Shown: positions 8,099 through 53,690 of the stretch, piece after piece
Numbering within the stretch: position 1 is the first letter of the stretch
How the letters are laid out: each line of letters begins with the position of its first letter
Assembly: GCA_030068145.1 (NCBI GenBank)
Contig: JAPJBO010000990.1
Location: forward strand, 16,518 to 80,517
Length of the DNA: 64,000 nt
Direction: 5' to 3'
Source: Diplonema papillatum
Taxonomy: Eukaryota > Euglenozoa > Diplonemea > Diplonemida > Diplonemidae
Notes under the pieces: generated by a model
Told to the model about the DNA's origin: nothing
Seen by the model: the letters and a program-made list of their open reading frames with translations, nothing else
Database searches by the model: none
Position numbers and translations under genes: made by a program

Positions 8099-8475
8099 GG
8101 GGGGGGGGGGGGCAGCGCTCTTGTTAAGGATCAGCCACTTTGGCCGGATGGCCGGATAAACCAGACCCCCCCCCCCCCCCCCCTCTACAGTGCAGTTGCC
8201 TTGGAGGCTGGGTGGTCAAATTCTCTAAGGTGAAATGGTCAAAATTCCCTGCCAAAAGTGGGCCCACAAAAATTTTCCAAAGTGTGGTATTTGGGGTATT
8301 TGGGGCAAAAAAAAAATTTTTTTTTTCTGACCGCCCACCGTGGTGACCACCTTAGAGTGTGACAGGTAGCGTCTCCCCCCTCCACAGTGAAAATAGCCTG
8401 AGGGGGGGGGGGGGGGGGGGTCAGCCGGCTGATGGATGGATGGATGGTTCTTAACAAGATGCCTGGGGGGGGGGG
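8099..8475. repeat. Foldback element with G and C runs, inserted in the MULE remnant
   Basis: It starts with G13 then a CTCTTGTTAAGGAT block and ends with an ATGGTTCTTAACAAGAT block and G13; the terminal blocks are inverted copies. Inside are a C run (8166-8183), an A/T palindrome (AAAAAAAAATTTTTTTTT near 8310) and a G run (8402-8420). It interrupts the transposase right after its first catalytic motif. Confidence 0.55.
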
Positions 8476-16448: not shown

Positions 16449-16560
16449 ATCTCCATGTGAAGCACGGACATGTAAACTGTGACAGTGACATGATCTTCAG
16501 TTTGGTTTCGGGTTCGCTCATTGCTCAGGCTTCCATTTTTGGAAAATTGCAATGTCTCGT
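16449..16560 (+). repeat. About 105-bp repeat, direct copy at 24022-24130
   Basis: CATGTGAAGCACGGACATG, then AACTGTGACAGTGACATGAT, then GTTCGCTCATTG and GGAA...GCAATGTCT are shared. The element class is unknown. Confidence 0.7.
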
Positions 16561-41374: not shown

Positions 41375-42860
41375 GTTTGAATGTTCTCAGACGCACACAC
41401 ATACACTCCAGTCCGTAATTAATCAATTTCTAATTCGTGAAGACCGCCAAATCCTTGAAAAAATAATTCATTCCTTCACGAAACAGAAATTCTCAAAACA
41501 CATGTTCACGATTTACAGGACCCCCAAAAGCCCCCCGACCCGCTCTTTGCGCTGGCAGCTGTCCGGCAGCAGGACCAAGAGATCGTCGAAAGTACAGCCC
41601 CCGCAGTGGCTGATATCAAGGTCATCACCGATCGCGCCGAACCGCTTGGTGTTGTTCAAGCGGACATCATGCATTCGTGGAATGCGGAGCCAAACAAAAC
41701 CGTGGGAATGGCTGTGGTGTCCAGGTGCGTGAACTACAAGCGCAAGCACAACGAGTACTTTTTCCCAGGCAGCGCAGCCCGAAGCCGCTGCTGATTCCCC
41801 GCCGTCTCGGGTGGCCGGAAACGGCCAATAGATTTGCCGCGCTCGCGCGCGGCAAATCCGCTAACGGCTTTTTGTGTTTCCACTGTTTTTCAGCGTTTTC
41901 TGCACTTAGGGGGCTTACCTGCCAGTGTTGCACGTCTCCTCCTCTCCGGCCTCAACCCAGTGTCGCGGTGGTAAGCAACAGCAGGACTGCCGGCCGGAAT
42001 CCCCGGTACCGCGGCACCTTATCTTTCAGTAAAGTATAACACACTAGTATTACACACTGCACTCTAATTAATGGGTGTATCATGTGTGGCCCTCCTAATT
42101 TAGTGGTCATCTCCCACTCCACCCAGTGTTCTTCAAATACAAATAAGCAATTTTCCTGGCTCGCGTAGCGAGCCGGGAAAAACAACGGTATGGTACACCA
42201 ATCTCCCGGGTCGCGTGTCCGTCATGCGCAGACATGCAAACTAGTTTGCCCCCTCCTCACCACCTGTCGCGAAGGCACGGTGCGAACAGAAGCTGCCTCA
42301 CACCCCCGACCCATTCGATACATTGTGTTCGCTGAATTCTTTGAAAAGACCTGCAGCCCACGAAAGGACTCAATACAGCGCGACGCGACGTATCTTCACG
42401 ACAAGGCTGATCCCTGAGAGGCCCTCGAATTGCACATTGGCTACCTCTGCCGGGGCCTGGGTGGTGGTGTAGTGCCATTTTTTTCTTCTTTTTTTCTCGG
42501 CGGCCTTTCCAAATTTGGCCTGACAGTCCAAATGTGGATACAATAGCTAATCCCCTGCCCATTTTTTTTCAGAAAAAATGGGTGGCCATTTTTTTTGGGT
42601 CTAGACCCTGTTACCAAAAAGACACAAGGTTTTGACCCTGCATGGTATATGCGATTGGTGCGTGGTTGTTCTGCCCCTCTCACCTGGCTTTTACACCCGC
42701 GACCGCACTGTGGCCTGCCGGACCGGGGGCCCACCAGCAAAAAAAAGATTAAACCCCAGCAGAAGCGCCCGTCAGAAAAATAATTAATTCCTTCACGAAA
42801 TAGCTCTTCACAAAATACAATTTCACAAGATATTAAACCCCCCCGTCGCTTAATATTTAC
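41375..42860. other. Presumed intron flank: unassigned frames and repeat pieces
   Basis: 41513-41749 (minus) and 41530-41794 (plus) give protein-like frames without recognised domain; one could be a further exon. AATTCATTCCTTCACGAAA at 41467 and AATTAATTCCTTCACGAAA at 42782 are near-duplicates bracketing 1.3 kb. A MITE arm (AAAAAGACACAAGG...CCCTGCATG) lies at 42615-42643. Confidence 0.4.
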
Positions 42861-43533
42861 ATTTTTAGCGTTTATTGTGGTTTAGAGGTTCGGTGTTTTA
42901 GGGTCTCCGGTTGACCATTGAGGCTGTGAGGCGGGTGGTATGAGGGTAGTAGGTATGCTTATACACTTTAACTACGGCTAGCCATGTTTGTAAGTGTTGC
43001 GACCGACACCAAGAAGAAATTCGCTTTGAATTTAGCCTTGGGCCCCCCACGCGCATGCATGTTGAGCATTGAGTTCTTTAAGGTGCAAGTGCCATCAAGG
43101 CAGGCGAGCACTGTTCACGGGCTAGTGTTACTGTATGACGTCGTCCGTCGGGAGAGTCAACGATGATGAGGATGTGGTCAAACTAGTCGTTTCCAAGTCA
43201 AGTTCAATTCCCGCTCGCTTTCGCGGTGCGGACTTTCCGGGCCTGTTGAGCAGGGGTTGCCATGCAGCTCGTATCGGTCTGTAATATGCGTTCTTACTTT
43301 CTTTTAGGTTGAGGAGGACGTGCGGTGGGGAGGGTCGGGTAGTAGAAAGAGAAGGTTTGGCAACAGCAGGTGTAGTAGTAGTGGTGAAAACTCAGCTACT
43401 GGTTGTAGACCTAGCTGTAGTTTATGTGTGAGCTGTTTGCTGCTAAAAAAAATATTCTTTCTTGCGTAAGTGGCGACTGCTTGTTGTCCTCCGCAGTTAA
43501 GGTACTCTGAATGCACTCTGGCATCGTGGCTGG
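42860..43533 (-). repeat. 3' untranslated region of the Penelope-like element
   Basis: It shares ordered blocks with 58654-59082: TTTTAGGGTCTC, GGCTAGCCAT, GACCGACACCAAG, CTTGGGCCCCCCACG, GTTGAGCAGGGGTTGCC and GTA(T/C)CGGTCTGT. This defines the element's 3' end near 42867 (minus orientation). A LINE fragment interrupts it at 43066-43246. Confidence 0.7.
43066..43246 (-). mobile_element. Short LINE insertion with GTTGAGCA duplication
   Basis: Relative to the second copy at 58850, about 180 bp are inserted at GTTGAGCA, and GTTGAGCA is present on both sides, a target-site duplication. On the minus strand the insert encodes the LINE C-terminal tail (RKRAGIELDLETTS... TDDVIQ then stop) followed by a 3' end (TTGAGTTCTTTAAGG in plus) like that at 9664 and 11767. 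Confidence 0.7.
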
Positions 43534-44895
43534 TTATCTGGTCGTAGCTCCTGGTTTGCGGTGTTTAGTTTTGCACCACGGTTTGTGGTGTCGTAGGCTT
43601 GTGAATTGTGGTTTGTTCGGTGTCTGTCCGTCGCTGTGACAGTACGGGCAAATCTCCCTTTTGCCTGCTGAGCTTGCAGGCGTGGTGCTGTGGCGTGGTG
43701 GTGTGCGTCGTAGTTTCTTCTTGCAAAAACGCAGGTGGATGCTCAGGCCGTGGATGCCTTTTATTGCAGTGCCAGTTTTCGTCGTTCGTGTGTGGCAGTT
43801 CGGACATTGGAGTGCCTCCGTGTCGGGCGTGTGGCCCGGAGTAGGCTCTAGGCCACGCATTTCTTCGAGAATTTGTTGGGTTGGCGTGGCAGTGCCGCTG
43901 CTCTTGTCGGATGATGGGACGTCGGTGGTGGATTGAGAGCTGCGTTGTGCGGTTTCGTTCCCCGTGCGCGTTGGGGTCTGAAGTGCGGTGTGCGGTGTTG
44001 AGTTTGTCATTGCGTCGTCGTCGAGGTGGCAGGGAACCGGTTCGTGTACAGGTTCTGTTGGGTCAAACGTATAGAAGAGTACATTCGTACTCTGGTCGGT
44101 GTAGCCGCGATTGGCTGAATGCGTGACGTTGGCGTTGTCGAAGTGTGTCCATCTTGCGTCATTGTATGGGGTATCGTTTAACACGTGTACAGTGTAGTGT
44201 CCCGCGTTGTCTCGTCCTGCGTGGGCAACAACTGCTCTGAGCCTCAGCGGTTGTGCCTGGTTAGGCACCTGCAGCGTTTGGTCAGCTGCAACCGCTTGGC
44301 GATTCTCCCTTGTGTGCTGGTTACGTGTTATGCGTAGAACGAGGCTTCCTTGTATCCTGCTGATGCTGTGTTGCATGGTCGTCTTATTGGAGGTTCCGCA
44401 CTCGCATCTGTACGTGTCCGGTTTGTGTGGGGCACAGTGGAAGTCCAGGCATCCTTGTACCGTGCTTGCAACAGGGGCGATGACAGCCACGTCGTTCCAG
44501 TGACCGTTCGTGTTGTTGTGCTTACATTTGGCACAACGTGTTGTCGTCGAGTACCAGTGTCGTATGGCGTCGAAGTTGTCAGACTCGCCTGGTTGACAGC
44601 ACGTGTGTGCTGCGTTTTCGTCTACGATTGACGCGATTACCACCCTCATTGCTTCCTCAAAGTCGTGTTGTTGGCCCGCTTCGAAGGGATGTTTTAGGTT
44701 CTGGTGCAGTCTAACGACGGTGTCCGGTGTTCTTATCCGCTGTGTCCAGTCGTACGCAGCCAAAGTGCATTCCCCTGTTCCGTGTGCTGCACATGTGACG
44801 TATTTCGATATCTGTTCGGCGAGGTTGGTGGCCGAGATCACGTTAAGTACCGCTTGTAAATAGCATGTATTTACAGCTGACAGGGTTTGCCGCAT
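43534..44895 (-). CDS. USP-type deubiquitinase with two zinc fingers, last ORF of the Penelope-like element
   Basis: 453 codons from an ATG. The USP (C19) Cys box is VNTCYLQAVLNVI (Cys11, Asn9 before it). The internal zinc ribbon is present (C121-x2-C124 and C164-x-C166). The His box is AHAGRDNAGHYTVHV (His233), with WTHFDNANV and VLFYTF closing the fold as in ubiquitin-specific proteases. A Thr/Ser/Pro linker leads to two fingers: CPNCHTRTTKTG...GLSIHLRFC and CPYCHSDGQ...FTSLRHHKPWC. It overlaps the end of the RT frame (stop 44843), is in the same orientation, and is followed by the element's 3' end. Role inferred: removing ubiquitin from element proteins or host factors. The frame is intact. 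Confidence 0.75.
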   Translation of the reverse strand: MRQTLSAVNTCYLQAVLNVISATNLAEQISKYVTCAAHGTGECTLAAYDWTQRIRTPDTVVRLHQNLKHPFEAGQQHDFEEAMRVVIASIVDENAAHTCCQPGESDNFDAIRHWYSTTTRCAKCKHNNTNGHWNDVAVIAPVASTVQGCLDFHCAPHKPDTYRCECGTSNKTTMQHSISRIQGSLVLRITRNQHTRENRQAVAADQTLQVPNQAQPLRLRAVVAHAGRDNAGHYTVHVLNDTPYNDARWTHFDNANVTHSANRGYTDQSTNVLFYTFDPTEPVHEPVPCHLDDDAMTNSTPHTALQTPTRTGNETAQRSSQSTTDVPSSDKSSGTATPTQQILEEMRGLEPTPGHTPDTEALQCPNCHTRTTKTGTAIKGIHGLSIHLRFCKKKLRRTPPRHSTTPASSAGKREICPYCHSDGQTPNKPQFTSLRHHKPWCKTKHRKPGATTR

Positions 44896-45970
44896 CGTGG
44901 TCTTGGGGTTCCTTGGTAGTTATTCTTTTGGCGGCGAAGGCGGCGATTGCTGCGGCGACGGTGATTGGAGCGACGATACTTGTAACTCGTTCGGCGACTG
45001 TAAGCGGTCTAGGCGGTTGCAAGGGCTGCGAGTTGCGGGAAGACGGTTCGCTGGCTAGGTCTAACGGGATGAAGTTCGCCGGTTTGTGTTTTCCTGCGTA
45101 CTCGGGTTCGTCGATACGCTGTTTTCCGGCTTTGCGTCTGGCAATCGAGAACCCGAGGAACGGCTTGAGTTGATTCAGAAGTCGTGGCAGGTTCGCGAAC
45201 TCTTCAGTCAGCCATGCGTTCCAAGGTGCGTACAGGACACGCGGGTTGTGTCCTCTCTCGATCATGGAGTACACGCTCCTTTGAATCTCCACGCGCAAGT
45301 CTTGCCAGTGGTTGGTCTGTCGTATCGCTCTGATGAGAGCTCTGATGAGAGCGCCTTTGAAAATTCCACTGGCTTGCGACTTGGGGGCTGTGGAGAGCTC
45401 GTGGGTGTAGCGTGTTCCGTAGTTCTTTGGCTGGATGGAAAGGCGTATGTGGGGTGCATGGGGGGTCGGGTCGTTCTACTCGTATGCGTACTCCGAGAAA
45501 AACGACGTCGTCGTGTGCGGTTGTGGTGTTCTTGTAGCGCATATGGTAAAGGTGTTGATGTGGAGGTGTCGTTCCCCAGTTGAGGAAGTCATCGATGAAG
45601 CGGAGCGTATGCGCGTGTGCTTTCGCCTCTTCGATCTTGCCTTCTTCTACGAGCCTGTCAATGTAGGCTTTTTCAATCCGGTAACAGAACAGATTCGCGA
45701 TGTCAGAGCTCGCGTTACCTCCCATGGGAATGCCGTCAACCTGCCTGTAAACGTTGTCACCCTGAGCTATGAAACTGTTGTTGATGATCATAGTTAGCAG
45801 TTCTTTGATCTGCTCTTTCGTGTAACCTCTTGTCTTGTCACTTGTTTGGCGGGTGAAGGCGAACGTCTTTTTGCCTTTTTGTTTAGCTCCTCGTGTGAGA
45901 TTAGGATTCCCTTCTGCTTCTTCGAACTCAAATGCTTCCTCGATCGCTGCGCAGACTTCTTCTATGATTT
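44843..45970 (-). pseudogene. Penelope-like reverse transcriptase, C-terminal half
   Basis: From about 45965 to 45460 the minus frame encodes EEVCAAIEEAFEFEE, then VYRQVDGIPMGGNASSDIANLF (motif B) and TLRFIDDFLNWG (motif C, xDD). Near 45455 the reading shifts; the next frame, ending at 44843, encodes YTHELSTAPKSQASGIFKGALIRA and RVLYAPWNAWLTEEFANLPRLL, the usual region after motif C. It ends in a hydrophobic helix (VAPITVAAAIAAFAA). The Y-x-Q-x-x-G-x-x-M-G pattern is typical of Penelope-like RTs. The first half of the RT is at 47517-49085, beyond an insertion. Confidence 0.75.
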
Positions 45971-46111
45971 TTCGAGACTGGAGGTCCTATGAACATGCAA
46001 TGTGAATAGCCTCTATTCGAGCCAACCCCACTTTTCTCTACACTCAAAAGTGTATTATTTTTTTGGAGCTGGGGGATGTGCAACGCTGGCTTTTTTCCCC
46101 CCTGCCAAAAG

Positions 46112-46165
46112 GCAAACGGGTGGCAGAGTGAGCGGGCGTCGGCCTTCAGGCCGGTAGGCCCGGGT
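46112..46165 (+). ncRNA. tRNA-like segment with A and B boxes (pseudo-tRNA or SINE head)
   Basis: TGGCAGAGTGAGC fits the pol III A box, GGTTCGAATTC the B box, at tRNA-like spacing. The middle (TCGGCCTTCAGGCCGG) forms an anticodon-like stem whose loop would read TCA. The acceptor stem does not pair well and the T stem needs a G-T pair, so it is unlikely to be a working tRNA. Confidence 0.45.
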
Positions 46166-46329
46166 TCGAATTCCGCCCTTGACATTTTTCCGGTCGAAGA
46201 TTGTTTTCGAGGTTTGTTGCGTTTCGGGGTCAAATGTGCCCGAAATTTGCGTTTTGGGCGGAGTTTCTCAGTATCTCGCGGTATTTGGGTCACCCCGGGA
46301 AACGGAGTCGGGCGGGCGAGACAGGCCAA

Positions 46330-46735
46330 ACTTGCTACGAACCGAACTTTGCTTCACCAGAGCTCAGCTTCGCGCGAACTTTGCTTCGTCCGAACTCAGC
46401 TGCGCCCGTACCAGAATTTAGCATCGCCCGAACTTTGCAGCGCCCGAACTTTGCTTCGCCAGAACTTAGCTTCGCCCGAGCGTTGCTTCGTCCGAACTCA
46501 GCTGCGCCCGAACTTTGCTTCACCAGAACTTAGCTCCGCCCGAACTTAGCATCACTCGAACTTATTATCGTCCGAACTGAGCTTCACCAGAACTTAGCTG
46601 CGCCCGAACTTTGCTTCGCCGGGGGGCGGGGGGGGCGCCCACCCGGGGTGTCCCCCCCCGGGCACGAGCACCGACCTTGGCTTCACCCGGACTTTACCAC
46701 CCTGGCCGAACTTCGCTTCGTGCCCGAACTTTTTT
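46330..46735 (+). repeat. GAACTTNGCTTCGCCC minisatellite
   Basis: About 20 degenerate units of 16-24 bp (CCGAACTTTGCTTCGCC, CAGAACTTAGCTTCGCC), interrupted near 46620-46665 by a G/C-rich hairpin. More units lie at 47415-47515. Confidence 0.85.
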
Positions 46736-47516
46736 TTTTACCAGCGCCAGTGCTCCCGCTAACCTCACTTTTGGTGAGGAATCCAAAAACCTGTTCGGGG
46801 CTTGTTTTTTTTTTTGTGCCACCCAAAAAAATTTCCCCCCGTGTTGTGCAGGTTATTAGCTTCGTTTTTGCCTTGGTTTCCCGACCAACTTTCTTTTGCC
46901 GCTGTGAGACCGAGAAAGCTTTTCTCCAGGGGGGGGGTCCGGGGGGCTCCGCCCCCCGGCAAACGGTACGGTACAGGTGGAGAACGTTTGCACTTCTCAG
47001 TCTGTTTGTCACAGTAAACACTGCAAATTCCTGGAGGCAACAGCCCATTTCAAATTCAACCACCACTTGATACTGCGTGCTGGTTAATCATTGGCACGAG
47101 TAGACGCAGACCAGAGATCACATGGAACAAGGCAATTGTTTCGACTCGGAGAATCTGTCAAGAAATCCGGGGTTGCTTCTGATCCTCGGCTCTCTTTCTC
47201 GGCTCCAGCCCCCGTGGCAGCCCCTGACTTCTGCCCGCCAGCCCACGAGTAGACTGTGATGCAGTGCTTTGGCTACACGATACCACCAACGGGAAAAAGG
47301 TGAGGAATTCCTCGTGAGGAATTCCTCACCCTCTTTTTCGAGCCTCTTTTTTTTTGAGGAATTCCTCGCACTTTTTCGTTAGCGGGAGCACTGACCAGCG
47401 CAGCCTGAGCGCTTAGCACCAGAACTTAGCAACGCCCGAACTTAGCATCACTCGAACTTAGCTTCACCAGCATTGCCCGAACTTAGCTTCGCCCAAACTT
47501 TACTGTTCCCCGAACT

Positions 47517-49085
47517 TTAACTGCTGCCTCCAGTCTCGCCACGCGCCGGCCTTAGCCGAGCGCACGTACTCTCTTGCGAGAGTTTCGTGTACATGTCTAC
47601 GAAGTCGTGTGTGGTGGGTATTTTGTAACGTAGGCGGGTGAGGTTCTGCTTTATGTGCAACGTAACATCGTCTGGTCCTTCTGTGAACCAAACCCGCTTT
47701 ATTCCCGTCCGGCGAAAGTTGATGCCGTCTTTCTTTTTTAGGGCTCGCATGACACCCTTGAGGATTCCCGAGAGCTCGAGATGGGCATTCGTAAGGGTCG
47801 CTTTAGGGGACTCTCTTCTGGTTTGCTTGACTTTTTTATCGGCGGCTACGCCGGCTATCCATCGGAAAGACGGTTCTGCTTTGTGTAGCTTTATCGTCCC
47901 GTATAGATGGGGTAGCCCTTTGTGAAACGGGAGGTCTATGTCTGCCATCATTCGGCGGTGTTCGCTCTCGACTTGGCTCTTCGTAAGGTTTTGTTGTTCG
48001 TACGTTTCGCTTGCTTCGAGCTGCTGCCGTAGTGCATGGACGTATTGCGTTTTGCAGCAGTATCCGAAGTCGTGAGTTGTTTTGTCGATGGGGAGGATCA
48101 CCAGCTGTTCCTTGATGGCTGTGAGCTCTGCTGTAGCTTTCGCGTCGAGTTTCTCGTCGTCTGAAGGTGGTAGTACTGCCATTCTGCGTGAGACTTCGTC
48201 TTTTAACTCGTTTTCGAAGGCTTGTGTGTCGCTGTCTTCAGGGTAGTTGTTGTGGACATATTCTTCGATCGCTTCGTGCAGGCTTTTCTCGAGTGCATGG
48301 TGACTTTGGTAGCATCGATATTTCCTGCCTCTTTTCGCGATTTCCGTCAGTCCTTTTTCCCTCGTGATATCCGTGAGGAAGCCGATGGCGTGCCCATCGA
48401 TGGTTTTTCCTGTATTATATTTTTGACACGGGCATTGCTCTGGTTTGTTGGGGTGCAAGTCAGGGAGTTCCTTGCTGATCTGCGTGACGTTTTGTAGTCG
48501 TAGGTAGAGCGGGGGATTAAGCCGGTAGGTAATCTTGGTACGCTGTAGGATCTCATCTTTCGGGCAGGCACGCTTGACTGCTGGCAGCTGGAGGATGTCG
48601 TGTAGATGTAGTTGGGCGATGTGTTCACTGCCGTGTGTGACGATGAATCTTGCCGGGGCCCCACCATCTTTGACCACCTTATGTAAGGTTATCTCTCCGA
48701 GTCGGTTTTTGAGACGCTCTTCGAGTGTTAGGACATTTTGTGGAAGCCCGGTGCGGGGTGCGTGTGCTACGAGCCAGTTTAAAAGGCGACGTATCCGTTG
48801 ACGTCCCACTAGGTCAAAATTGTACTGTTGAAGGTCTTCGTCGTTGAGGTTGAGGAGGTGGTGAAGTTGGCTTCGTACTCGTGCTTCGTTGGTAAGGCTG
48901 ATTTGCAACTTCCCGTTCTCTATCCATGCCCAGGTAGTCGTCTTCGGACTCTTCTTACTACGTGAGTGCGGTTGGTTCGTACGTTTTCTACTGTTCCGCG
49001 GGCGCGTCAAAGTTGCTGTTGTCTTGGCGTGTCGTTGGACATTGAACGTAGGATTGAAGTGAGAGATCCACGTTGCTGTTTCCAT
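47517..49085 (-). pseudogene. Penelope-like reverse transcriptase, N-terminal half
   Basis: Reads METATWISHFNP..., a long basic leader, then CPCQKYNTG...DGHAIGFLTDI...RGRKYRCYQ, the C-x-C ... G-H ... G-x-K-Y-R block seen upstream of RT in many Penelope-like proteins, then LPHLYGTIKLHKAEPSFRWIAG (motif 1) and THDFVDMYTKL (motif A, catalytic Asp). The frame then runs into an insertion and stops at 47517. The RT resumes at 45965. No GIY-YIG endonuclease was seen before or after the RT. Its start overlaps the end of ORF1 (49007). Confidence 0.75.
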
Positions 49086-50843
49086 CCTACGTGCAGTTGT
49101 TTGTGTTGCTTTATGTGGAAAACAGTTTGCGCGTCACGCCGCTTTGCCTCGTAGGTTGCCCAGAATTGCTTTTCGTAGTTATACTTTGCTTTGGTACGAA
49201 AGCAAGTAAGAAACGGATTCTCCTTGAATTCCGGGCGGTTGGCTTCTTGCGTGTCGATAGCATTTTGTTTCAGTTTATACTTCAGATGCTCGTCGGGTGA
49301 GGTGTATAGGCGGACGGTGATATTCTTGGTTGGTTGGTGGTTGGCTGTGGTTGTGTTGTAGGTAACGGTAGTTCGAGATTGTTCGAAGTTCCGTTTGCTG
49401 GAAGTGGGTGAGGAGCTGACGCCTGCGGGAGGTTCGAAGGTGTGAAAGTATTTGTCCATATACTTGCGAGAGTAGTGAGGCTCGGTGGAAGAATGGACGT
49501 GTGAGTGCGTCTGTCTATTCCGTTTATCGCGGTCGGCCAAGGGAAGTGCGTTGCTGAAGTCTTGGAGAACGTGAGAGCGCGCGAAAGGTATCGCGGTGGT
49601 TTCGTTGCTAAAAGCTTGCTTCTGCAGTGTTTGGTTCGTACTATGACAGACGTAGGAGGAGTGGGCAGCAGTGGTGTTGGAATGCGGGCTGCCGAAACTG
49701 TCAGTGTGGGTTGTGCGTTGAGGCGTTCTGTTGGAGGTCGTAGAATAGGGATATCTAAGGGGTTGAGGCGTGTATCCGGTGTCTTTGCGGCCCACATCGA
49801 CGGTACTAAGAGAGCATGGTGGTGGGACATATGACTGGCCGGAGGTTACGACGCGGTGCGGCTGCGGTATATAGCTATCGTCGTGGGGGGTGAAAGTTTG
49901 ATCCGTGTACGACAGAGTGTTGGAGGTGGTGCGGTGAGACAAAGTGCCCGTCATGCAAAGTGTGGTGGTGTATGTTTGGGGGTGTGGGATCGATAGCGTT
50001 GTACGGTGTAGGTCCGTAGGTATTGTCGTCAATGGTGGTGTCATGATATTTGTTGTCGGCTCGGCTGGTGGTGATTGGAATGTATGGTTGTGGGATGTAG
50101 GCTTCGTCTTTGTAGGGTGTGTGGTGATGTGAGTTTTGCGTAGGTGTGGATGATCGTGTGTTGGACGGTTGAAGTATGCGAGTGTCGTCGTTGCGAGAAG
50201 TAACTTGGTCCGAGTTAGGTGAGAAGCTGATGGAGGGGGGGAGGTGCGGCTGTGGGACGTATGTGTCGTGAGAGGGATGGTGGTGTGCGTCTGAACGTTG
50301 AAGTATGCGGCGGCTGTCGTTATGAGCAGCGTTTCGGTCCCTGCCAGAGGATACACTGGTCGTGCTGCACGGCTGTGGGATGTAAAACTCCTCGTTGAGA
50401 GGTGTGTGGCGTGTGTAGGGAGAAGGTGCGCCAGAATGCTTGGTGTACGGTTGAGGTACATAGGTGTCGTCGCTAATGTAAGAAACATTCGTCATGTAAG
50501 GTGAAACGTTGACGGTGGGATTGTAGTACGGCTGTGGGATATAGAACTCATCGGAGTGAGGCTTGCCGTGGCGTGTGTTTGGAGAGGATGTGTCGGAGCG
50601 TAAGTCGTACAGTTGAGGTACATAGCTGACGTCGCTGAGGGAGGTGATTTGGCACACTGGAAAACTACGAGTGCAGAAAACTAGCTTTTTCGAGTGAATG
50701 AGATAGGTTTTCCACCGCACCACCAGACTTTTCTGCACTCGAGTTGCACTGACACCAGGTAGAGCGGAGGCCAAAATCGAAGAAAGGTGTTCAAGCGGGG
50801 CAGCAGATGTCCTTGCATCTGCAATAAGCCGGGCAAGTACCAA
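49007..50843 (-). pseudogene. ORF1 of the Penelope-like element, YIPQPY repeats, one frameshift
   Basis: From 50843 the protein shows a motif every ~25-35 residues: VSYVPQLY, EFYIPQPY, DTYVPQPY, EFYIPQPC, DTYVPQPH, EAYIPQPY. At about 49880 the repeats jump to the next frame (DDSYIPQPH, QSYVPPPC, TGYTPQPL), so a single indel breaks an otherwise continuous ORF down to 49007. The C-terminal ~120 residues are Lys/Arg/Gln-rich (KYNYEKQFWATYEAKRRDAQ). No known domain. By position it is the nucleic-acid-binding or structural ORF of the retroelement; the repeats may be protein-docking sites. Confidence 0.65.
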
Positions 50844-51442
50844 GGAAGATACGAAGACTTCCTAGCTTTCGTCAGGTCCTGTCGGCGTGCTCGAGGCACA
50901 GCCCAAGAGAAGAAGTGCGTACAATAATGAGAACGGTTACCCCGGAGAAATGAAGGGCACAACTGCAAGATGACACGTAAAAGGAAGACAGTACGCAAAT
51001 GACACACGTTCTTACTCTTAATGGCACACCTTCTTACCTTTACTTGTCATTTGGAGCTGTGGTCCTCACTTCTCAAGCTGAAAACGTCTTCAGGACCACC
51101 TTTTCCCCGGCATTGCCTTGACAAATGGTCAACAACTTACTAGAACCCCCAAAAGGTCAGCAGTGCGGAAAAGTAGGTCACCAGTACGGAAAAGTAGCAA
51201 ACGAGAGTGCAGAAAAGTCGGGTGGCAGGTGGTAAAAACAGTTTCTGGTGTCATAAAAGGCCAGTTCTTTCGTTAGCCTTCCGTAGGCGGGGGTTTGGTG
51301 GGAATAAAGTCGTCGGGGGGAAGACTCCCCTGTCCCTGACCCAATATTTTACGCGGGCTTAAACAAAATCGGGTCAAGCTGGCCCTATTTTTAAGCTCCA
51401 CCCCTGCTGCAAAGTAAACTGCGCAGAGAGGAAGGTTGGCAT
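50844..51442. other. 5' region of the Penelope-like element and intron flank
   Basis: Carries repeated AGTGCGGAAAAGTAGGTCACC / AGTACGGAAAAGTAG pieces (51150-51220). GTGCAGAAAAGTCGGGTGG at 51210 is the inverse of CCACCAGACTTTTCTGCAC at 50723, so the element's start may lie in one of these. The rest is unassigned. Confidence 0.45.
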
Positions 51443-53176
51443 TCATACAAATACCGTATGATATCGCATGAGAAAAGAAGCAGCATACGACTGAAAGTCG
51501 GAGACGCTTTCCGAATGTTCGCCGATTGTGCGAATGTCTTTTGCAGTGTCACTGGGTCTCAGAAACGGAACGAGAGGGTTGTGGGAGCTGCTATGTGCGG
51601 ATTGTACGCCAAACTGTTTTGAGGTAATGCTGGTAGGAGACGCGTAGTTGGTCGGTCGCGACGAAAGGTCATTGTGCGGGCGTCGATACTTTGGAAGGCG
51701 AGAGGCCTGCTTGCGGAACTTGGTGGAGTGGTCGGTCTCGGATGCGAGGGCGACAACGCTGCCTGTGGGTGAGTTATCTTGCGTGGGGTGCGCAAACTTC
51801 GGTGAATCACGCCTGTTGGTCTGTTCACTAGTAGTGGTCCAGGCGGACGGCTGACGTAGGATGACAGGCGTGTTTGGGCTTTCCATGTCGTCGTTTGCTG
51901 TGACGTCCTTGTAGCACTCCACTGCGGCCTCAGCCGCGCAAACGCAGTGTCGCGAGCAGTGTTTGACGGCGTTGTACGATGCGAGTATCGTGTCGCCTTC
52001 GAAGAATTCGACGATTCCCTTTCGTGCACCCAGCACTTCCAGCGCACGGGCGGCAACCCGTGAGAAGTCGATGGAAAGCCCACGGGCAGCTTCCAGCGGG
52101 ATCTTGGGCGTGTTGCAGAGAGCGATCCGGACCAGAGTAACGGGCAGCAATCGCAGAGGCCCTCCGAAGCTGGTGTGGTTGTTGGAGAGGGTCAGAAAAG
52201 AGCGGGTCCTTTTGTTCGTTGACCCAGTATCTTCGGTCGCAGGGTGCAGGCTACTGCTGTTCGGGGAGGTCATGTCAGCAGTAAGATCCTCGACGGAAGA
52301 ACTTGAATGGTCAGAGAACTGATCGACGTTCGGAAGGCAGCTTTGCGGGAGGAACCGCTTGTACCCTTCCAGATTCTCGAGGATGCTGCGAAGGGATGTC
52401 ACGAGATCACCGTGCAACTCTTCTTCGGATGCTGCCAGGCGCTCCTTGGCGGGGTCTAAGTCGAAGCGGGATATATGGTGCGCTATTTCCCGCACAGCGT
52501 CTGTTGCTGCAGCGCTGGCATCTTTATCGTGCTGCAGGGTAGATGCGAACTCGCGCATGAACATGTAGTTCAAGAACAAGAGTGCAAGGCGAATCCCCTG
52601 GCTGGTCAAAGCAGCCGACAGGCTTTGCACGCACGGCAACTCGCTGCAACTGGTGGAGAGAGCTTGTTGGCGGGCTTCTTGGTCAGGAATACCCGGCAAG
52701 TCATACAAGCCGAAACGAGTACAGTCTTCGACGGTGATCAACGTCGTCCACAGTACAGCGACCACGAATGTTCCCGACGCGTAGTAGCTGGGCATTTTGA
52801 TCGCCGTGAACAAGTCCATAAATGTCATGAACATTGGCCACACGGGGCTGCCGTGAAGAACACGCCTTTCGAGATCGGAAACAACGAGCGCAGTCAAACC
52901 TGCCGCTGTACCCAAGCCGATGAGAAGATTGGGTACAGACTTCCGCACAACCATCCACGAGCCAATGCCCACCGAGCACACGAACAGGAGGGCTGAAGGG
53001 AAAAAACTGGAAAGCAGAAAGGCGCTCTCGTTGTCGAGCATCAACTCGACCATCCACGGGACCAAGATGAGGGGACACAAAAAGACGACAAGGCTGAGTA
53101 GTTTCTTTCGTTGAATGGTTATGGCGCTGTCGTCTGCATGGGCCACAGCCGCGTACACAAAACCAAAGCATCTCAT
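51443..53176 (-). CDS. 5' exon of cyclase-homology membrane protein
   Basis: 577 codons from ATG 53176. About six hydrophobic segments lie in the first 230 residues (LLSLVVFLCPLILVPWMVEL, FFPSALLFVCSVGIGSWMVV and others). A linker ENLEGYKRFLPQSCLP follows, a block often preceding cyclase domains in protist proteins. Then GIVEFFEGDTILASYNAVKHCSRHCVCAAEAAVE is the central beta-alpha part of a class III cyclase domain. The first metal-binding Asp position reads ALCNTP, so catalysis is doubtful. A disordered tail runs to a stop, probably read into the intron. The second half of the domain is at 40190-41306. The N-terminus is paralogous to 1-392. Confidence 0.7.
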   Translation of the reverse strand: MRCFGFVYAAVAHADDSAITIQRKKLLSLVVFLCPLILVPWMVELMLDNESAFLLSSFFPSALLFVCSVGIGSWMVVRKSVPNLLIGLGTAAGLTALVVSDLERRVLHGSPVWPMFMTFMDLFTAIKMPSYYASGTFVVAVLWTTLITVEDCTRFGLYDLPGIPDQEARQQALSTSCSELPCVQSLSAALTSQGIRLALLFLNYMFMREFASTLQHDKDASAAATDAVREIAHHISRFDLDPAKERLAASEEELHGDLVTSLRSILENLEGYKRFLPQSCLPNVDQFSDHSSSSVEDLTADMTSPNSSSLHPATEDTGSTNKRTRSFLTLSNNHTSFGGPLRLLPVTLVRIALCNTPKIPLEAARGLSIDFSRVAARALEVLGARKGIVEFFEGDTILASYNAVKHCSRHCVCAAEAAVECYKDVTANDDMESPNTPVILRQPSAWTTTSEQTNRRDSPKFAHPTQDNSPTGSVVALASETDHSTKFRKQASRLPKYRRPHNDLSSRPTNYASPTSITSKQFGVQSAHSSSHNPLVPFLRPSDTAKDIRTIGEHSESVSDFQSYAASFLMRYHTVFV

Positions 53177-53690
53177 TGTGCGCTCCCCCGCACACGCAAT
53201 AAGAAATAGGCAATGGACAGCGACTCGAAGATCGGAGCCACTCGTACCTGCTATTCGCTCTGTTTTCCTCTGATTAATCCTTGTTTTCCTGTGTTGGGAA
53301 GAGTGCTTGAAAGATGTTGCGCTTCACCGATGATCGGCATTTTGGGTGCGTGGGAGCAAGCATTGGGTTTCGTTGACTAAACTGAACCTTCTCCTCAATG
53401 ACCGTGAGGAACGTTCTGAGACATTCCTTGTTCGAACACCACTCCTCTCATCTTCTTCATACTTTGCTCACAGTATGAACTTTGCGATACACGGAAGATG
53501 TAGAGGTAAATCCTTCAGACTCAGACGTTCTCATGAATCTCCTGGAATCGTAACTGTTTCTGATGGCTTGCAAGTGAGGGGCAAAAGACTGCCGTGTTTT
53601 AACGGGATCAGGCTTGCAGAATCCCATATGCTACATCACGTATTGGTCACACGTGTGCACTACTACCACTAAAGGGGGGGTAGACAAGGA
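53177..53690. other. Upstream region of the cyclase-homology gene
   Basis: Presumed promoter. One 108-codon plus frame (53346-53672) has no domain. Confidence 0.35.

Follow-up and report, generated by a model that had tools for sequence, protein, structure and literature searches.

We analysed a 64,000-nucleotide window of genomic DNA from Diplonema papillatum, a marine single-celled flagellate (Discoba, Euglenozoa). The window corresponds to positions 16518–80517 of contig C990 in a 271-Mb assembly of 2910 contigs. A Diplonema spliced-leader exon has 600 matches in this assembly when up to 2 mismatches are allowed (315 forward and 285 reverse), whereas the backwards control has 0. It contains a decayed retroelement on the minus strand (42862–50645, nested insert included), which is probably a dead copy of a Penelope-like element (PLE) and which ends in a predicted ubiquitin-specific protease (USP). 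The element belongs to one of ten families, whose letters A–J are coined here, and represents family A. Its six main open stretches, read as stop-to-stop frames, are all collinear on the minus strand.

The 3′ end at about 42862 (query 8434–8439) is reached by all 14 copies that were fetched from the genome. The 5′ boundary given in an earlier note on this DNA, 50843, had to be moved. The element starts near 50645 because the first 72 codons of the frame then called ORF1 (about 50646–50861) belong to a different dispersed repeat. This position is the 5′ limit of the window copy only and not the true 5′ end of the family. The disordered N-terminal region (49875–50645, within the stop-to-stop frame 49875–50861) contains six YxPQPx repeats, which are the YIPQPY-type repeats that had been recognized before. 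It matches weakly (42% and 38%) to sequence that precedes the GIY-YIG domain in a family-B copy on C1040. An alignment to the more complete copy L039 places a deletion of 268 bp at 49071/49072, with which the GIY-YIG endonuclease was lost; the view that the element lacks an endonuclease therefore applies to this copy and not to its relatives.

The CxC linker and the N-terminal part of the reverse transcriptase (RT) follow at 47570–49133, as judged from the frame, the motifs and the match to L039. They include a CPC motif inside 48423–48437, LYGTIKLHK (47880–47906), and DFVDMY (47589–47606). The RT is split by a nested insert of 1598 bp (45972–47569, no strand assigned), which has many 16-bp AACTTAGCTTCGCCCG-like repeats and is foreign to the element: six of the fetched family-A copies (L039, L042, L043, L044, L048, and L050) extend across this site, and none of them contains it. 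Arrays of the AACTTAGCTTCGCCCG-like repeats are located at both ends of the insert, and L041 and L043 also have repeats of this kind next to their copies. The catalytic part of the RT (45204–45971) was assigned from its frame, a weak RVT_1 match (45204–45986, E = 0.0041, 17.3 bits, cut-off 29.6), and the motifs GIPMGG (45717–45734) and FIDDF (45585–45599), which correspond to the GxxMG and xDD motifs on which the RT had originally been identified. The C-terminal part of the RT and a linker (44843–45475) are frame-shifted in the window copy but in frame with both the RT and the USP in L042 and L050. The USP and two C-terminal zinc-finger-like motifs occupy 43534–44919. The 3′ untranslated region (42862–43533), delimited by the common 3′ end of the copies, has the terminal sequence ...AATAAACGCTAAAAA. 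About 170 bp of this region (43069–43240) are missing from most of the 14 fetched copies and may be a small dispersed insert, because part of this stretch has an 87% match at another position of L048 and L050.

The 461-residue open frame at 43534–44919 matches the UCH/USP profile PF00443 with an E-value of 7.8e-17 and 62.2 bits (cut-off 23.9) over profile positions 7–254 of 254, and the profile search that had been called for thus bears out the USP assignment. The domain carries the Cys box (44854–44871), QQHD (44662–44673), the His box GHY (44185–44202), and WTHFD (44137–44151), together with zinc-ribbon cysteines (44524–44535 and 44395–44406). The zinc-finger-like motifs behind it are located at 43723–43806 and 43573–43650. 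C19, H241, and D261 form what we take to be the catalytic triad of family A; family B has the same Cys and His with Asn at the third place, and the Cys and His boxes are invariant between the two families. When a profile was built from the A and B USPs, 68 distinct PDB sequences matched it at E up to 0.01. The best 60 of these are all named ubiquitin or ubiquitin-like (Ubl) carboxyl-terminal hydrolases, with USP36 at the top (8bs3, E = 4.8e-11). The A and B USPs share 36% identity (E = 5e-79), whereas the best of eight host USPs matches the A domain with E = 2e-6. The domain was also read directly in family B (L054, E = 2.8e-14; UCH score 53.8 bits) and in family E (L055, E = 2.2e-4; a 600-bp piece scored 21.4 bits and stayed below the cut-off), where the Cys box is present. 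An AlphaFold model of the USP from the single sequence had a mean confidence (pLDDT) of 34.6 and was not used.

The arrangement of the intact protein can be read from relatives of the window copy. In L042 and L050, the RT and then the USP form one continuous frame of 1027 residues downstream of the truncation point. L039 reaches further in the 5′ direction and has a GIY-YIG domain (VIYALI...YVGQT...RENWWI) before the RT, followed by a CPC motif. Its match to PF01541 (E = 2.3e-4, 21.9 bits) is just under the cut-off of 22.6, whereas the GIY-YIG domains of family B are above it (30–32 bits). The RT frame is broken in L039 as well, and the window copy has frameshifts near the RT–USP junction. The earlier note described three collinear minus-strand ORFs that overlap slightly. 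The collinear minus-strand coding stands, but the six main stretches are best read as the decay remains of one polyprotein, and the overlaps are frameshifts of this copy. The predicted architecture of the element is GIY-YIG, CxC, RT, USP, and zinc fingers, with zinc-finger-like motifs after the USP in both A and B.

A genome search with the USP as a query found 93 places, 43 of them with at least 90% identity. Fourteen of the 93 were fetched with their flanks; they say nothing on how often the USP is lost by truncation because they were picked for a nearly complete USP. There are 13 distinct 5′ starts among them. The common 3′ end and the staggered starts are therefore the pattern of 5′-truncated reverse transcripts. 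L048 and L050 may derive from one insertion because a 5′ flank is common to both. As for target-site duplications, a 12-nt match in L045 was clearly above the control, and those in L044 (9 nt), L046, and L047 (8 nt each) were slightly above it; the remaining 10 copies were not above it.

The association of the RT with the USP was evaluated at 150 RT-core places. In at least 136 of them, a same-strand USP place follows inside the next 3 kb (distance 879–2021 bp, median 1386), while none has a listed USP place in the 3 kb upstream or on the opposite strand. The USP lists used here contained 108 of 151, 78 of 152, and 65 of 93 matches after exclusion of weak, partial, and repeated rows. RT copies lacking the USP had been named beforehand as evidence that would speak against a Penelope-like element ending in a USP, and the outcome favours the original proposal. 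No relative of the family-A RT–USP protein was found in IMG/VR and GTDB contigs by a scan that reaches close relatives only.

The USP appears to have been maintained while the lineage was active. Zero stops occur in 459 USP codons across 14 full-span family-A copies. The fixed USP differences between the subfamilies A1 (4 copies) and A2 (10 copies) comprise 8 synonymous and 8 nonsynonymous changes, giving a ratio of nonsynonymous to synonymous rates (dN/dS) of 0.30 (binomial p = 0.017), a sign of purifying selection in the dN/dS analysis that had been proposed earlier. The variants inside A1 (4 synonymous, 4 nonsynonymous) give the same value of 0.30. In a second copy set, the counts were 14 synonymous and 9 nonsynonymous for the RT (0.19) and 8 and 7 for the USP (0.26). 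These comparisons indicate that RT and USP were both kept by purifying selection. An intact USP among broken ORFs had been considered special; this view is not supported, because truncated relatives retain an intact RT and both domains were constrained.

The families were grouped by identity and frame length, using sets of 77 and 150 RT places, 118 GIY-CxC places, the best 150 of 225 GIY-YIG places, the USP places, and the best 150 of 656 OTU places. Relative to the window element, the RT identity is about 80% in B (2210 codons, e.g. C168), 60–61% in C (up to 2762 codons, e.g. C187), and 60% in D (2663 codons, e.g. C167), and that of the RT core is 57–58% in E (1448 codons, e.g. C868) and 56% in F (1513 codons, e.g. 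C24). Families G, H, I, and J have frames of 1562, 1585, 1457, and 1544 codons, respectively. On the five contigs named for B–F, the GIY-YIG, RT, and USP places are collinear and report an equal frame length. Stop-free long frames are common, with 13 of 77 RT places reporting 2210 codons, and the N-terminal region is long in families A–D. The idea that B is a sister family free of the USP was refuted by the USP in L054 and by B USPs genome-wide. Among the 37 G/H-type places (the rows of the GIY-YIG match list from C349 to its end), a UCH place lies 2–5 kb downstream of GIY-YIG in 32 (3042–3714 bp), and 28 of the 37 show a frame of equal length.

Families I and J have a different domain at this position. 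In family I, 350 bp at the expected USP position (L056) behind the GIY-YIG place at 284358 of C145 read ...PGDGNCLFHSLAYGK..., which is the OTU active-site (DGNC) box; the PF02338 match (E = 6.6e-4, 20.6 bits) is under the cut-off of 23.3. In family J, an OTU domain (41.1 bits against the same cut-off) lies downstream of GIY-YIG in all eight places; the spacing is 3069 bp except in one place, where it is 4424 bp, and seven of the eight report a frame of equal length. As predicted from these matches, two unrelated deubiquitinase folds occupy one position after the RT region, USP in A–H and OTU in I and J; the spacing suggests that an RT is also present in G–J. Many OTU places also occur in further long frames that are repeated (1876, 1938, 1966, 1972, and 2130 codons), for example at C1898:405–656, C1524:347–655, C957:32967 and 40515, and C2450:2026 and 9574. 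In these, the OTU is near the frame start where a contig end limits the frame, and some of the places form tandems with spacings of 7548, 7550, or 6111 bp; these frames may represent additional retroelements in which the OTU is N-terminal. A 609-codon frame is common to eight GIY-YIG places (C150, C667, C1582, C1646, C2153, C2233, C2318, and C2436) and perhaps marks a derived family without RT or deubiquitinase in the frame.

On the basis of architecture and motifs, we consider it probable that the window element is a dead copy of a diplonemid PLE with an N-terminal endonuclease and, jointly, that its polyprotein carried a working deubiquitinase, whatever its target. As in other PLEs, the endonuclease would nick DNA, and the RT would copy the element RNA there. 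The fused deubiquitinase would travel with the RT protein, and its substrates could be that protein, its ribonucleoprotein (RNP), or host proteins present at the target. By stripping ubiquitin from the element's own protein and RNP, or from host proteins where the element inserts, it might block ubiquitin-dependent turnover or restriction. USP and OTU interchange here, and they share little beyond ubiquitin hydrolysis; this exchange therefore suggests that ubiquitin removal itself was the selected property and that the elements depend on interfering with the ubiquitin system of the host, although it does not point to a target. We lean slightly towards the broader view that a deubiquitinase was fixed across a radiation of N-terminal-endonuclease PLEs in this diplonemid with swapping of USP and OTU, so that ubiquitin removal would be obligatory, hinting at ubiquitin-based restriction in Euglenozoa.

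Protection of the element's own RNP is the role that we tentatively favour; like a role in chromatin, it had been suggested in the earlier note. The main alternative is that the deubiquitinase works chiefly where the element inserts, on host chromatin or DNA-repair proteins such as ubiquitin-bearing histones or repair factors, and eases integration. USP36, a nucleolar and nuclear enzyme, is the best PDB relative of the USP, and zinc fingers follow the domain in A and B. The authors of the Ginger study also proposed that transposon OTU and Ulp1 domains are connected with DNA repair (PMC2836005). However, the USP36 match is remote and carries little information on the substrate, and we regard a chromatin or repair role as rather unlikely and place it behind RNP protection. 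Other retroelements process their polyproteins with proteases, and the location of the deubiquitinase in a long polyprotein would agree with a similar processing function. However, USP and OTU enzymes cleave behind a ubiquitin moiety, and no ubiquitin-like segment was seen in the stretches read, or by Pfam in the pieces scanned, a check that left out the N-terminal regions of B–D. Such a function is thus quite improbable. To a similarly small degree, the USP might be catalytically dead and kept for binding ubiquitin or nucleic acid, as the Asn for Asp in family B could indicate. The conserved Cys and His boxes of A and B, the Cys box in E, and the exchange for OTU, with which the common property is mainly the activity, all argue for an active enzyme instead; moreover, active USPs with Asn at the third triad position exist.

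The assignment to PLEs is supported by features of several families. In 2021, Craig and colleagues reportedly defined the Naiad/Chlamys elements by an N-terminal GIY-YIG, a CxC motif, an insertion-in-fingers domain in the RT, and the absence of a canonical hammerhead ribozyme. In our elements, RT and GIY-YIG share one open frame in families B–F (in the window copy, the GIY-YIG is deleted and the frame is broken), the GIY-YIG is N-terminal to the RT, and a CPC lies between endonuclease and RT in the window copy (on its side of the deletion) and in L039. Head-to-tail copies with exact periods were found in family E on C510 (5726 and 5726 bp), in F pairs on C2819 and C61 (5850 bp), and in an H pair on C230 (7901 bp). 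In family A, the 5′ junction of L044 abuts 3′-tail-like sequence, the sole tandem sign seen among the fetched copies. An Rfam scan of window positions 42000–52000, which hold a truncated copy only, gave three matches up to E = 1; all were far under their gathering scores, and none was a hammerhead. The single GIY-YIG and RT frame, the staggered 5′ ends, and the exact-period head-to-tail copies therefore point to a PLE, and the N-terminal endonuclease, the CxC, and the lack of a hammerhead in the scanned stretch point to the Naiad/Chlamys kind. A different class of RT that gained a GIY-YIG would account for the weak RT Pfam match, and our classification is based on motifs and not on RT phylogeny. 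The CxC and N-terminal endonuclease (by the criteria attributed to Craig and colleagues) and the tandem copies make this very unlikely, and PLEs have been described as the only retroelements that have GIY-YIG and RT in one frame (PMC12910113). A USP that is a host gene or fragment adjoining the retroelement by chance, or a one-off capture, might be suspected from the single copy in the window and from the host USPs in the genome (L001–L008), but it is ruled out for practical purposes by the same-strand, collinear, in-frame association repeated across many families (136 of 150 RT cores) and by the element USPs being closer to each other than to any of the eight host USPs compared.

Several observations weigh against a PLE with a working deubiquitinase. 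The third triad residue of the predicted enzyme is Asp in A and Asn in B. The family-A matches to RVT_1 and GIY-YIG are both under the curated cut-offs, and no PDB relative of the RT or of the GIY-CxC part was found at E up to 1. The USP dN/dS of 0.30 between A1 and A2 is based on 16 fixed differences, which are small numbers. USP variants inside A2 (1 synonymous and 5 nonsynonymous, 1.5) give no sign of constraint and look like neutral decay after insertion. Fourteen of the 150 RT-core places are without a USP place among the matches listed, which does not demonstrate its absence; one of them (C304:1006, minus strand) lies close to a contig end, at a distance of about 1 kb. The RT of G–J is placed by spacing and not by a direct sequence match, and the OTU of family I is drawn from 350 bp at one of seven family-I GIY-YIG places.

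The sequence that borders the element on its 5′ side (50646–50861) is a dispersed repeat with many short matches across the genome. An inverted repeat of 26 nt (50720–50745 and 51200–51225, 88% complementary, 454 nt apart) also lies beside this end. Further upstream, an open frame of 626 residues on the minus strand (51443–53323) has no Pfam match up to E = 1 and is probably a host gene.

PLEs are poorly understood, and little is known of their restriction by hosts. The USP lineage and its sister OTU families would serve as a natural experiment, which speaks for a role of ubiquitin in retrotransposition and offers a defined enzyme and catalytic residue for tests of that role. They also place PLEs with an N-terminal endonuclease in Euglenozoa. 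The literature searched, which omits most subscription papers, listed no PLE that carries a USP or OTU domain. The genome paper on D. papillatum from 2023 reports about 2500 retroelement gene models in its main text, where neither "Penelope" nor "ubiquitin" occurs (PMC10161547).

The USPs of these elements resemble cellular USPs in the Cys box, QQ box, zinc ribbon, His box, and WxxFD box. However, cellular USPs are not fused to a PLE RT, and the eight host USPs compared are only distantly related. Naiad/Chlamys PLEs reportedly agree with the present elements in the GIY-YIG before the RT, the CxC, the tandem copies, and the lack of a detected hammerhead, whereas the C-terminal USP or OTU, the zinc-finger-like motifs, the long N-terminal region of some families, and the Euglenozoan host set the present elements apart. 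Chlamys-type PLEs are described in Ectocarpus (PMC12477816). Canonical Penelope/Poseidon elements likewise have RT and GIY-YIG in one ORF and tandem copies with pseudo-LTRs, but their endonuclease is C-terminal and no deubiquitinase is described (PMC11167929). Some families of the NeSL/Utopia non-LTR elements have a Ulp1-like cysteine protease fused to the retroelement protein; they differ in that the protease is N-terminal and of the Ulp1 type, the endonuclease is restriction-like, and the RT is of another class (PMC4640811). Ginger1 elements are DNA transposons without an RT; OTU or Ulp1 domains, never both in one protein, are C-terminal in related transposases. OTU or Ulp1 domains occur in Ginger1 and in DNA transposons of other kinds, and in Trichomonas a transposase that carries a C19 domain provides a precedent of the USP type (PMC2836005).

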